This document shows, piece by piece, positions 29,328 to 34,507 of a stretch of DNA of 64,000 nucleotides (positions within the stretch are counted from its first letter, which is position 1; each line of letters begins with the position of its first letter). The stretch is from Aquisphaera giovannonii (GTDB taxonomy: Bacteria > Planctomycetota > Planctomycetia > Isosphaerales > Isosphaeraceae). The stretch covers positions 7,502,001-7,566,000 of the forward strand of contig NZ_CP042997.1 of the NCBI RefSeq assembly GCF_008087625.1, given 5' to 3'. Made by a program: the position numbers and the translations under genes. The notes beneath the pieces are model-generated. The model ran no database searches and had not been told where the DNA came from. It worked only from the letters and a program-made list of their open reading frames with translations.

Positions 29328-29726
29328 GAGGCCCCCGGTTTCTCGGGCTGCATGGTAGACTTCTGAAGGATTGCCAAGGTAATAGCTCTCCGGGTTCGCG
29401 GTCAATGGCGTGTGCCCTGGGGGCCCCCAAACCTGCCGGATCGGGCAATGCCGACGAGCTAAGCGGTCGCACCGGAGACGCGGTTCGCCGGATCGGCGGG
29501 ACAGGAGATTGGTTCCAGGACGGTGCGAATCGGTGCCGAAGTATGAGGTGATGGGCTCGAATATCCCCGCGTCGCGGATCGTCTCGGGAGAAGCGGGAGT
29601 GTCCGCGCCACAATGAGCCCCGAACGCGCCAATTCCAACAATACACGAATGCATGACCAAACGGGCCCGGGAGGGTGGGCGTGGGAACGCCCTCGGGAAC
29701 GGCCCCGTCCAGAAAGGTCCAACGCA
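29328..29726. other. Divergent intergenic region
   Basis: About 400 bases between the ACT protein and the secreted protein, with one promoter candidate at 29379..29405. Nothing else is recognised. Confidence 0.5.
29379..29405 (-). promoter_or_regulatory. Candidate promoter for the ACT-domain gene
   Basis: On the minus strand TTGACC (29400-29405) and TATTAC (29379-29384). The 15-bp spacing is short, which lowers confidence. Confidence 0.4.
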
Positions 29727-31082
29727 ATGCTGTGGCGACACCTTTGCCTGGTCCGGGCCTGGTCGGCCGCGGGCCTGATCGTGCTGGGATCGGTCCCGGC
29801 GACGGCCCAGACCAAGGGGCTCGCTGATGGCCTCGAACGGTCCGCGCCCCCGGCCGGAGTCGAGACCGCGACGGTCGATCTCCTGAAGGGTAGCAAGGCC
29901 GGGGACTTGAACGTTGTCGCCCGGGGCGATGGCCAGGAGCGGGTGCGGCTGACGATCCGCAACACCTCCGCCAAGCGCCTCAACGTCGTCATCCCGCCCG
30001 GCCTCGTCGCCTCGGCGGCGGCGGGCCAGGGGGGCGGCGGCCGCGGCAACCAGAGCATGGGGCTCGGCTCGGTCTCCACCCACGCCGGCGGGTTCGGCCA
30101 GTTCGCCTCCTCCGCCGGGGCCGCGGGGCTTCGGTCGGTCGACGTCCTGCCGTCCCCCATCGGTCCTGCCGTGGCCGTGCCGTCCGGGGAGACGATCGAA
30201 GTGAAGGTGCCGGCCGTCTGCCTGAACTACGGCCTCGCCACCCCGACCCCGGCCAACACGTTCACGCTCATGGACGTGGCCGACTATTCCAACGACCCGC
30301 GGGTGCGCAAGGCCCTCCGCTCCCTCGCGACGCTCGGCACGAGCCACGGCGTCGCCCAGGCGGTCATGTGGCGGGTCTGCAACGACCTGCCGTTCGAGTC
30401 GATGGCCTCCCAGGCCGGCAAGATCATGAACACCTCCGAGATCATGATCGCCGCCCGGTTCGTGGACCTGGTGGATCGGTCGCCCGACGAGCAGCTCGTG
30501 GACGGCTCCGCGCTGATGCACGACCGCGTCTTCGTCCGGATTCATGGCGAAGGGGCGCTCGCCAAGGATGCCCAACGTCTTCATGACCAGATGGTCAATT
30601 ACCGCCTGCTCGGCCTGCCCGTCCGGGCGCTCGACGACGCCGACGCCCCCTCGGCAGAGGGCCCGGCCCTGCTGATCGACGTCGCCCTCACCGACACGAG
30701 GATCGGCGAGACGAAGGGCCGCATCGCGATCGGCTATCGCGGCGGCAATGACGACTGGCAGCCGATCGGCAAGTCGTCGTTCCAGGATAGCTCGTCGCTC
30801 GCGGTCCTCGACGGCGAGACGCTGGCCCGCAAGCTCGATCAGGCGATTGCCGGTGCCCTCGTGACCGTCAAGCCGGCGAGGAAGGCCGTGGGGAGCACGC
30901 TGCTGAAGCTGGACAACCGCCTCCCCTTCACGCTCTCCGCCATCACCGTCAAGGCGGGCGACTCGGCCGGGGCGCCCGTCGTCCCGTACGCCGCGGTCGG
31001 CGTCGGGCCCGGCCGCTCGGCCCTGCTGCCCATCCAGGCGCCCTCGGCGACCATCGAGCACGTGGAGCTGAATGGCCTCTAA
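29727..31082 (+). CDS. Secreted protein of unknown function
   Basis: A 451-residue exported protein. The N-terminus MLWRHLCLVRAWSAAGLIVL and the following GSVPATAQ form a signal peptide with cleavage after ATAQ. The mature region has a beta-rich segment (VRLTIRNTSAKRLNVVIPPG), a Gly-rich loop, and a helical part (DPRVRKALRSLATLGTSHGVAQAVMWRVCN). A C-terminal beta-rich domain follows. I recognise no catalytic motif. It resembles planctomycete exported hypothetical proteins. ATG 29727 has AGAAAGG nine bases upstream. The longer frame to 29613 is not supported. A very strong terminator follows at 31110, so it is monocistronic. Confidence 0.7.
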   Translation: MLWRHLCLVRAWSAAGLIVLGSVPATAQTKGLADGLERSAPPAGVETATVDLLKGSKAGDLNVVARGDGQERVRLTIRNTSAKRLNVVIPPGLVASAAAGQGGGGRGNQSMGLGSVSTHAGGFGQFASSAGAAGLRSVDVLPSPIGPAVAVPSGETIEVKVPAVCLNYGLATPTPANTFTLMDVADYSNDPRVRKALRSLATLGTSHGVAQAVMWRVCNDLPFESMASQAGKIMNTSEIMIAARFVDLVDRSPDEQLVDGSALMHDRVFVRIHGEGALAKDAQRLHDQMVNYRLLGLPVRALDDADAPSAEGPALLIDVALTDTRIGETKGRIAIGYRGGNDDWQPIGKSSFQDSSSLAVLDGETLARKLDQAIAGALVTVKPARKAVGSTLLKLDNRLPFTLSAITVKAGDSAGAPVVPYAAVGVGPGRSALLPIQAPSATIEHVELNGL

Positions 31083-31313: not shown

Positions 31314-31592
31314 ATGCCCTTGGTACGCCGGCGGTACTTCTTCTCGGGCCACGTCCAGGGAGTCGGGTTCCGCGCGACCTGCCGCCACCTCGCCGGCGGT
31401 TATCAGGTCCTCGGGCATGTGCGGAATCTCTCCGACGGTCGGGTCGAGCTCCTGGCGGAGGGGAGCTCCGCGGAGATCGACCGCCTCATCGAGGCCATCA
31501 AGTCCGAGATGGGCCATTACATACGCGAGACCACCGTTCATGATGAGCCGTGTGGCGAGCCCGCACTGACGAGCTTCGCCATTCGCCTCTGA
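31314..31592 (+). CDS. acyP: Acylphosphatase
   Basis: A 92-residue acylphosphatase, which hydrolyses the carboxyl-phosphate bond of acylphosphates. The signature FFSGHVQGVGFRATC carries the phosphate-binding Arg, and LGHVRNLSDGRVELLAEG carries the catalytic Asn. Length matches the family. ATG 31314 is chosen over the in-frame start at 31287 because MPLVRRRYFFSGHVQG is the usual opening. It is followed 87 bases later by an ABC permease gene, which is probably transcribed from the same promoter. Confidence 0.9.
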   Translation: MPLVRRRYFFSGHVQGVGFRATCRHLAGGYQVLGHVRNLSDGRVELLAEGSSAEIDRLIEAIKSEMGHYIRETTVHDEPCGEPALTSFAIRL

Positions 31593-31679: not shown

Positions 31680-32501
31680 ATGAAATCCATCACCATCGCC
31701 CTCGCGACCGCCAAGGAAACGATCCGTCAGCCCTCCTTCTTCGTCATGGCGGTGATCGCCGGGGCGCTGCTGATCGCGACGATCTTCGTGCCGTACTTCA
31801 CGTTCGGCGAAGATATCAAGATGTACAAGGACACGGGGCTGACGACGATCTCCTTCGCGTGCATGCTGCTCGCCCTCCTGACCGCGAGCTCGACCGTGGC
31901 GGAGGAGATCGAGGGCAAGACGGCCATCACGCTGCTCTCCAAGCCGATCAATCGGAGGCAGTTCATCGTCGGGAAATTCCTCGGGATCGAGCTGGGCGTC
32001 CTGGCCCTCTACGTCCTGCTCGGGACCCTCTTCGCGGGGGGGCTCTGGTACAAGTACCAGTACGACCTGAGGGAGACGGCGGGGGGAACGGCGGAGACGG
32101 CCAAGCGGATCGCCCAGGTGATGCAGGTGCTGCCGGGCCTGGTGCTCGGCTTCTTCGAGGTGACCATCCTCACGAGCATCAGCGTGGCGATCTCGACGCG
32201 GCTTCCGATGCTGGTGAACCTGGTCGTGTGCATCCTCATCTTCTTCCTCGGCCACCTCAGCCCCGTCCTCGTGGAGGTCGCCAAGGAGACCCAGATCAAC
32301 GAGCTGATGAGCTTCATGGCCAGGCTGTTCTCGCTGATCCTCCCGTCCCTGGAGTTCTACAACGCGGGGCCGTCCATCTCGACCGGGGCGGTCATCCCCT
32401 GGTACGGCTACGTCCTGCCGGCGCTAGGCTATTGCGTGTTGTACAGTGGAGCGGCTTTGTTGTTCGCCTTCCTTCTCTTTGAAGATCGCGACCTGGCCTG
32501 A
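31680..32501 (+). CDS. ABC-2 type transporter permease
   Basis: A 273-residue integral membrane protein with about six hydrophobic segments, for example SFFVMAVIAGALLIATIFV, ISFACMLLALLTASSTV and YVLPALGYCVLYSGAALLFAFLLF. EIEGKTAITLLSKPINRRQFIVGK is the typical ABC-2 cytoplasmic 'E-x-G-T/K-x-L-L-x-x-P' segment. Substrate is unknown. No canonical ATPase gene is adjacent. The next gene encodes a fused exporter with a degenerate ATPase, and whether they pair is uncertain. There is no clear Shine-Dalgarno before ATG 31680. Confidence 0.8.
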   Translation: MKSITIALATAKETIRQPSFFVMAVIAGALLIATIFVPYFTFGEDIKMYKDTGLTTISFACMLLALLTASSTVAEEIEGKTAITLLSKPINRRQFIVGKFLGIELGVLALYVLLGTLFAGGLWYKYQYDLRETAGGTAETAKRIAQVMQVLPGLVLGFFEVTILTSISVAISTRLPMLVNLVVCILIFFLGHLSPVLVEVAKETQINELMSFMARLFSLILPSLEFYNAGPSISTGAVIPWYGYVLPALGYCVLYSGAALLFAFLLFEDRDLA

Positions 32502-32530: not shown

Positions 32531-34507
32531 ATGAATGCGGATGCCTATCGTCGCGCGAGGGCACTCGTGGGTCCGGGGCGTGACGGGCCGGTCGGTCGCA
32601 TCCTCGGCGCGGTCCAGTCGGTGCTGCTGCTGGGCCTGCTGGTCATTGCCTGCCTGTTCATCGCCCTGATGGCGAGCCGGGGCGAGGCCCGATTCCCGGC
32701 GGCCCAGGAGGCGGAGCTTCCGTCCTGGGTCGCCCATCTGGGCACCGGCGATGGCCTGTTCGTCCGGTTTCGCAACACGGGGATCTTCCCCCTCGTCGCG
32801 AACAATCTCCTGAGCCGCAACCCGGTGCACCGGCTGGGCGCCCGGGTCCTGGACCGGATCTCCGGGGCCATCCCGCCGCTCCGGAATAATCTCGGCGCCC
32901 TGGCCACCCTGCTGGCGGTCGGCCTGCTCTTCCTGCTGGCGATCACGTTCCTGACCCAGTGGAGGCGCCGGGCCATGTCGCGAGCGGCGACCGACCTGGC
33001 CACGACCTTGCGACGGCAGATCCACCGCCAGATGTACCGGCTTGGCGACTCCTCGCTGCCGACCGAAGGCATCGGCCCGGTCGTGAACATCTGGACCCGC
33101 GAGGTGAACGACGTCCGGGAGGCGTATCTTGCGGACCTCAACATCACGCCGCGGACGCAGATCCTGGCCGCCGGCCTGATCCTCATCGCCCTGTTCGCCT
33201 CGCCGATTCTGACGCTCTTCCTCGGCTCCCTGGGGCTGCTCGTGTGGATCACCTCGCGGGTGCTGAACCGCGACGCGCGGCTCGCCCACGACGCGGCCCT
33301 CCGGGACGTCTCGGTCCAGCTCTGCTTGCTCCACGAAGACCTCGGTCTGCTCCGCACGGTCCGGATCCACGGGCTGGAGAGCTATGACCGCCAGCGGTTC
33401 GACGAGCACCTCGACCGCTTCCGCCAGGCGGACGCGGAGCGGATCGCCACCGAGCCCAGGATGAATCCCACGACCGTGCTCCTCTACGGGTCGGCCGTGG
33501 TCATCGCGCTCGGGCTGCTCGGATACAACATTCTGATCCGCGATCACATTTCGATCGGGACCATGCTGGTCCTGATGGCCTCGCTGGCCGGGCTGGCCGT
33601 GCCCATCTCGCGGTGGCTGAAACTCCGCGACCTCATCACGCAGGCCAATCGATCGGCGTCAGGCATCTTCGAGTTCCTGGAGCGGTCGCCCGAGCTGCAC
33701 CAGAACGTCGGTGCCCACTTCCTCGCGGCGGTGAGGGAGCAGGTGAGCCTGCGGGACCTGTCGCTCCGGAGCCGCACCGGCAAGACCCTCCTCTCGTCGG
33801 TCCAGGTCGACTTCCCGGCCGGGATGAGGACCGGGATCCTCAGCCTCGACGAGGATTCGCGGCTCGCGATGGCCTGCCTGATCCCCCGCCTCATCGATCC
33901 CCAATCGGGCCGCATCCTGATCGACGGGCATGACCTCCGGGACGTGACCCTGGAATCGATCCGGGCGCAGGTCGGCACGGTGCTGCAGTCGGACCTGGTG
34001 TTCACCGACTCCGTCCTCGTCAACATCGGCATGGGCGACCCGGTGAACGGCCTGCCGCGCGTGATCGAGGCGGCGAAGCTGGCACACGCCCATCATTTCA
34101 TTCTCGACCTGCCCCACGGGTACGACACGATCATCGGGCCGCTCGGCCACTATCTGAAGCCGGATGAGCAGTTCCGGATCGCGCTGGCGCGGACCTACCT
34201 GCACGACGCCTCGGTCCTCATCGTCGAGGAGCCGACGGTGCCCGTGGATGAGGAGACGCAGCTCCTGATCGACGACACGCTCGCGAGGCTGGCCGAGGGC
34301 CGGACGCTCATCCTCCTGCCCAACCGGCTGTCCACCATCCGGTCGTGCGACCAGCTCATCGTGCTCCACGACGGGAAGGTCGAGGATGTCGGGTCGCCGG
34401 CCCAGCTCGAGGCCGAGAGCAAGATCTACCGCCACCTCATCTACGAGAAGTTCAACGAATTCGCCGGCGGGGAGATCGCTTCCGGCCACCTCGGCCTGAA
34501 CGTCTGA
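32531..34507 (+). CDS. ABC exporter-like protein with degenerate ATPase domain
   Basis: A 658-residue half-exporter: a membrane domain (hydrophobic segments near 30-48, 122-142, 210-242, 315-360) fused to an ABC ATPase fold (about 400-640). The fold is clear (LIDPQSGRILIDGHDLRDVTLESIRAQVGTVLQSDLVF, then DLPHGYDTIIGPLG), but key motifs are altered. The Walker A region reads GILSLDEDSRL (435-445), with no GxGKS/T. The signature is LKPDEQ (542-547) instead of LSGGQ. Walker B Asp is replaced by Glu (VLIVEE), and the H-loop His is Asn (LPNRLST). The Q-loop Gln486 is kept. ATP hydrolysis is therefore doubtful. It may be a regulatory or scaffold partner of a canonical ABC half. The start has GGAGGAC upstream. 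Confidence 0.8.
   Translation: MNADAYRRARALVGPGRDGPVGRILGAVQSVLLLGLLVIACLFIALMASRGEARFPAAQEAELPSWVAHLGTGDGLFVRFRNTGIFPLVANNLLSRNPVHRLGARVLDRISGAIPPLRNNLGALATLLAVGLLFLLAITFLTQWRRRAMSRAATDLATTLRRQIHRQMYRLGDSSLPTEGIGPVVNIWTREVNDVREAYLADLNITPRTQILAAGLILIALFASPILTLFLGSLGLLVWITSRVLNRDARLAHDAALRDVSVQLCLLHEDLGLLRTVRIHGLESYDRQRFDEHLDRFRQADAERIATEPRMNPTTVLLYGSAVVIALGLLGYNILIRDHISIGTMLVLMASLAGLAVPISRWLKLRDLITQANRSASGIFEFLERSPELHQNVGAHFLAAVREQVSLRDLSLRSRTGKTLLSSVQVDFPAGMRTGILSLDEDSRLAMACLIPRLIDPQSGRILIDGHDLRDVTLESIRAQVGTVLQSDLVFTDSVLVNIGMGDPVNGLPRVIEAAKLAHAHHFILDLPHGYDTIIGPLGHYLKPDEQFRIALARTYLHDASVLIVEEPTVPVDEETQLLIDDTLARLAEGRTLILLPNRLSTIRSCDQLIVLHDGKVEDVGSPAQLEAESKIYRHLIYEKFNEFAGGEIASGHLGLNV

Follow-up and report, generated by a model that had tools for sequence, protein, structure and literature searches.

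A planctomycete ABC exporter homologue with a degenerate ATP site, encoded beside a NosY-like permease

What keeps an exporter-like gene in a genome when the motifs of its ATP site are gone? An open reading frame of Aquisphaera giovannonii raises this question. It lies in a 64,000-nucleotide stretch of contig NZ_CP042997.1, the whole of which is called the window below, and it encodes a homologue of ABC exporters (the pseudo-exporter) next to the gene of an ABC-2 permease. A preliminary description, made from the letters of the sequence, had proposed a purposeful pseudo-ATPase that pairs with a canonical partner in the manner of asymmetric exporters. The coordinates of the features are collected in Table 1; the motif names Walker, A-, Q-, H- and D-loop follow textbook usage.

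Table 1. Features of the locus, with positions in the window
Feature	Position	Strand	Remarks
Acylphosphatase	31314..31592	+	92 aa; precedes the permease; homologue cluster upstream in 23/41 loci, two families
NosY-like ABC-2 permease	31680..32501	+	273 aa; usual upstream neighbour; no ATPase gene adjoining
Pseudo-ABC exporter, TMD + NBD fold, ATP-site motifs lost	32531..34507	+	658 aa; ATG start
First membrane helix and following loop, residues 1-118	32531..32884	+	highest omega (0.244) of the window pair
Transmembrane domain (TMD), residues 119-385	32885..33685	+	omega 0.080 in the window pair
Pseudo nucleotide-binding domain (pseudo-NBD), residues 400-645	33728..34465	+	omega 0.129 in the window pair
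SLDEDSRLA replacing GxxGxGK[ST]T, residues 438-446	33842..33868	+	alignment, AlphaFold2 model
LKPDE replacing LSGGQ, residues 542-546	34154..34168	+	alignment
Glu-Glu, residues 566-567: Walker B Asp to Glu, catalytic Glu kept	34226..34231	+	alignment
H-loop His to Asn, residue 598	34322..34324	+	alignment

The frame of the pseudo-exporter is open throughout, and a GGAGGA stands 7 nt ahead of its ATG. A promoter and terminator scan, weakly informative for Planctomycetota, found 0 and 0. Pfam recognized both ABC_membrane (46.9 bits) and ABC_tran (33.5 bits) over their cut-offs, the ABC_tran match beginning only at profile position 30, that is, past Walker A. The same profiles matched 31/34 (ABC_membrane) and 34/34 (ABC_tran) family members at E<=0.001 (set A3), while none of the best 25 of the 104 NCBIfam models matching the protein attained its cut-off. 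Since ABC_tran passes the Pfam cut-off, automatic annotation would probably label the pseudo-exporter an ATP-binding transporter.

According to the AlphaFold2 model, built on a 34-row alignment, the fold is predicted to be intact (mean pLDDT 86, pTM 0.79). The best Foldseek matches of this model in the PDB were all type IV exporters (TM287/288, ABCB10, TmrAB, P-glycoprotein and MsbA), so the earlier statement that the rest of the fold is intact is borne out as a prediction. Downstream of strand 433-438 the model has a helix beginning at residue 441. This is ahead of position 444, that of the Walker Lys, so the helix may take up part of the room of the phosphate-binding loop.

Alignment with canonical exporters showed which residues of the ATP site differ. 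Walker A of the window protein carries G438S, G441E, G443S, K444R, S/T445L and T446A, and the A-loop Tyr (column 414) is a Ser; Gln486 of the Q-loop is retained. The absence of Walker A and LSGGQ, the Walker B Glu and the H-loop Asn had all been read correctly in the preliminary description. Whether these substitutions are conserved has a divided answer, as the losses of the P-loop glycines and of the signature are common to the family and the changes of the H-loop His to Asn and of the Walker Lys to Arg are not. For this comparison family code f1 was taken as Isosphaeraceae, and f2 is another family, 31-36% identical. Neither P-loop glycine (441, 443) is preserved in any of 40 Isosphaeraceae rows or of 27 f2 rows. 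Every one of the Isosphaeraceae rows has an acidic residue, Glu in 33 and Asp in 7, instead of the glycine at position 441. Of these 40 rows, 35 retain the Walker Lys and 4 have Arg in its place, whereas all 27 f2 rows have lost it. The f2 signatures (LxxG[QE]) are less degraded and keep the second Gly and a Gln or Glu in 27/27 rows. One further f1 row (L055, from G011), omitted from the 40-row count, is likewise degenerate and has an Arg in the H-loop.

At the H-loop position, 39 Isosphaeraceae rows have a letter: Asn in 2, those of the window and of A. insulae, and His in the other 37, among them G002, which bears the same genus code as the window. Isolated cases of Asn were seen elsewhere, in one of the 27 f2 rows and in L221 and L227. 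We rejected the H-loop Asn as a family-wide feature; judging by this alignment, it is a recent and local change.

Neither Walker A (GxxxxGK[ST]), nor a looser form of it, nor an xSGG signature was matched in any of 110 family rows. These rows span seven family codes (f1, f2, f101-f104 and f109) and include partial ones, among them L056, L229 and the two fragments of one gene, L057 and L058, of which L057 ends before the signature region. The same script, run as a control on canonical exporters, found Walker A in 45/45 rows and the signature in 43/45, the 45 rows representing 43 distinct sequences. Orthologues with intact motifs, named in the preliminary description as the sign of local decay, are thus absent from the 110 rows.

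We computed a tree from 48 family members and 44 canonical exporters of planctomycetes after removing the motif columns; in it the whole family lies on one side of a branch with an SH-aLRT of 99. The tree was made by a quick method, is unrooted and carries SH-aLRT support only, and long branches in it, such as L124, L127 and L055, are uncertain. With the family on one side of this branch, multiple independent motif losses are not favoured; the ATP site was most likely lost once, in a relative of planctomycete ABC half-exporters.

Simple Nei-Gojobori counts (pS 0.28-0.48) gave a whole-gene dN/dS of 0.126 for the window gene against that of A. insulae, 0.057 for two Singulisphaera and 0.041 for the pair L004/L013. 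Judged by these ratios, the pseudo-exporter is shown to be under purifying selection in the three pairs tested. We found neither of the marks of a pseudogene, relaxed selection or a broken frame, and rejected local decay, as the motif loss is common to the whole group, omega is low and the frames are open. The idea of a purposeful pseudo-ATPase is supported by the motif counts together with an omega of 0.02-0.13 in the pseudo-NBD.

To describe what the family has lost and gained, we compared 45 members with 43 canonical exporters, L124, L136, L137 and L140 having been dropped ahead of the count. Of the conserved columns, 27 are canonical ones that the family has lost, 29 are shared by the two groups and 34 are peculiar to the family. 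ATP contacts make up 12 of the 27 lost columns and fall in the A-loop, P-loop, Q-loop, signature, Walker B Asp and H-loop. The positions conserved only in the family include the linker 391-397, residues 566, 568, 581, 582 and 586 around Walker B, and a C-terminal RHxxYxxFN (634-642). We read this pattern of lost and gained columns as that of a protein whose function would have changed rather than been lost. Compared with type IV (MsbA/ABCB-like) half-exporters such as TM287/288, TmrAB and MsbA, the pseudo-exporter is alike in domain order, predicted fold and sequence homology, but it lacks Walker A and SGG in the 110 rows and does not conserve the A-loop Tyr or the Walker B Asp.

For the neighbouring permease, Foldseek indicated a NosY fold (7znq and 7o0y, best E 6.9e-5, TM-scores about 0.6), and none of the NCBIfam models matched it. 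One segment of the permease aligns well with NosY and is conserved; going by what is generally known of ABC-2 permeases, we take this segment to face the ATPase. In fold and conserved segment the permease resembles the NosFY / NosDFY ABC-2 transporter, but it lacks an adjoining ATPase gene and has the pseudo-exporter or other genes there instead. In some families the permease open frame reaches about 500-630 aa, with the extra sequence on the N-terminal side.

The preliminary description had noted this permease without an adjacent ATPase gene, and the observation was confirmed well beyond the window. No ATPase gene adjoins the permease in any of 90 loci inside and outside the class, some of which end near the gene. 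Among 91 loci, 90 of them containing the permease, an NBD-like ORF other than a family member was found in 8 (L091, L098, L102, L126, L130, L140, L141 and L165), never adjoining the permease. We considered the nearby exporter of L140 as a possible member and rejected it as a canonical paralogue (Walker A present, 101 bits, 1.8 kb from the permease).

The two genes are usually found together. In 88 of the 100 genomes with both, the pseudo-exporter lies just downstream of the permease on the same strand with a gap below 1.2 kb, adjacency being taken from match coordinates and the gap measured between match edges. In the other 12 the genes are not adjacent, lying far apart on one contig in 2 genomes and on different contigs in 10. 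Among the first 41 loci compared, the pseudo-exporter follows an ABC-2 permease on the same strand in 40. The other neighbours mostly differ between f1 and f2, although clusters 4, 5 and 8 turn up again at a few f2 loci. A 489-aa ORF at 29613-31082 of the window has no Pfam or NCBIfam match, and its homologues (cluster 3) occur nearby in 17/41 loci.

We then looked at how far each gene extends through the planctomycetes. With a threshold of E<=1e-118, placed beyond the best canonical match (1.8e-113), 101 of 148 class genomes contain a single pseudo-exporter match; the most divergent members (g18, L124) escape this threshold. In the order of the window, 40/45 genomes match at E<=1e-60, and two of the five misses, G033 and G034, carry a more divergent syntenic member. 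Strongly divergent members, full length and still adjoining the permease, were seen in two g18 genomes (L136 8128-10095 and L137 5147-7069) and in G484 (L124 8598-10478). A search for hidden members in 13 genomes lacking a syntenic copy, in which 26 of 32 matches were read, found one in G449 (L190, unlinked); the remaining 25 all carry Walker A.

The permease is found in 143/148 class genomes, with one match each except in G494, and in 109/382 phylum genomes. Among the 143, 43 have no family row at E<=1e-118, although divergent members are present in a few. Another 32 class loci were picked, partly for families lacking a family row; the pseudo-exporter stands beside the permease in 13 of them and is absent there in 19. 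Three of those 19 genomes carry a member elsewhere: G327, G449 and G459, where it lies away from its permease. Because permease genomes and loci exist without the pseudo-exporter, the basic function of the permease does not need it. Outside the class, none of 18 loci has an exporter-like neighbour adjacent to the permease. Four of these 18, picked for an ORF of 246-299 aa following the permease, all have a calcineurin-like metallophosphoesterase there (L148 3136-3870, L149 7088-7837, L158 7453-8202 and L157 5690-6583).

Our preferred reading is that the pseudo-exporter is a nucleotide-independent partner of the permease, to which we give a probability of about one half. A relative of planctomycete ABC half-exporters would have lost its ATP site and then been kept as a nucleotide-independent membrane protein; this protein may act as a non-catalytic partner of the NosY-like permease, and the permease would take its power from an ATPase whose gene lies elsewhere in the genome. 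The parts of this reading do not stand equally firm. From its motifs, the pseudo-exporter very probably does not hydrolyse ATP. It is likely that pseudo-exporter and permease take part in one and the same process. That it serves as a non-catalytic subunit of a complex, be it scaffold, gate or regulator, in which the permease is powered by an ATPase encoded elsewhere, can only be proposed tentatively. The catalytic Walker B Glu567 (window 34229-34231) is conserved in 39/39 Isosphaeraceae and 27/27 f2 rows and counts against a simple scaffold, which would not require it. The strong divergence in the g18 genomes and L124, the 12 genomes with non-adjacent genes and the several families that have the permease but no pseudo-exporter also tell against a partner of the permease.

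The pseudo-exporter could instead be an ATP-independent channel or secondary transporter, a homodimer with a gating stimulus other than ATP. In the window pair the omega of the TMD is below those of the other two parts, and the model predicts an intact TMD fold. However, constraint weighs more heavily on the pseudo-NBD than on the TMD in the other two pairs (0.041 against 0.057 in Singulisphaera, 0.024 against 0.059 in L004/L013), and a channel would leave the linkage to the permease gene unexplained. We regard this explanation as rather unlikely.

The pairing with a canonical half-exporter encoded elsewhere, as in the heterodimeric asymmetric exporters, fares no better than improbable. In its favour, the heterodimers TM287/288 and TmrAB are among the close solved folds, the genome of the window holds 5 further exporter-like matches (E<=1e-45), each with Walker A, and the f2 signatures retain part of the motif. 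Degenerate sites with a changed Walker A are also known, with Lys to Arg in ABCG5/G8 and Lys to Cys in Pdr5, and the review PMC7756269 lists TAP, CFTR and others with these two among the asymmetric exporters whose degenerate ATP-site motifs are likewise kept under selection. As set out there, a composite ATP site is built from Walker A and B and the A-, Q- and H-loops of one NBD and the signature of the other. Even in the strongest degenerate cases of that review, such as Pdr5 and ABCG5/G8, Walker A is changed within one site and the second stays canonical. In the pseudo-exporter, by contrast, a single NBD has lost both Walker A and the signature, which would leave a homodimer with no ATP site. 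For the same reason, pairing with a canonical half would yield a heterodimer that lacks Walker A in one site and a good signature in the other, both being incomplete where asymmetric exporters keep one canonical composite site (PMC7756269). This same-NBD loss speaks against an asymmetric exporter, even though the f2 signatures are less degraded. Moreover, a canonical half-exporter is adjacent in none of 54 loci with the pseudo-exporter. Canonical exporters also group together whether or not their genome has a pseudo-exporter, so no canonical partner tracks its distribution in the set examined. The canonical partner suggested in the preliminary description is thus not upheld.

It is equally doubtful that the altered pocket binds a nucleotide or another phosphorylated ligand in a new way. 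The Walker Lys of most Isosphaeraceae rows, the invariant Glu567 and the newly conserved residues near Walker B would suit such a pocket, but the acidic residue at 441 in every Isosphaeraceae row, the loss of the Lys throughout f2 and the loss of the A-loop Tyr argue against it. Finally, a decaying gene or sequencing artefact, to which the very divergent g18 members and L124 might point, is highly improbable given long open frames across families, whole-gene omega values of 0.04-0.13 in three pairs and the group-wide loss.

A literature search by title and the start of the abstract found no paper on the pseudo-exporter family or its transport system. As to essentiality, neither "transporter" nor "permease" occurs in the main text of the P. 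limnophila Tn-seq paper (PMC10632474). What we rate as new is an ABC exporter homologue that appears, from its motifs, to have become a pseudo-ATPase at both sites. Known degenerate ABC sites leave one of two active; here Walker A and the signature are lost together, and the family is still widespread. More speculatively, a whole exporter, with its membrane and ATPase parts, may have turned once into an ATP-free subunit and been kept across most of the class to serve an orphan NosY-like permease as its dedicated partner, the permease drawing on an ATPase from elsewhere; this would make a complex of two transporters with one engine erased. The pseudo-exporter family is a natural experiment on the role of the NBD fold in the absence of nucleotide, and the widespread permease (143/148 class genomes) points to a planctomycete transport system.
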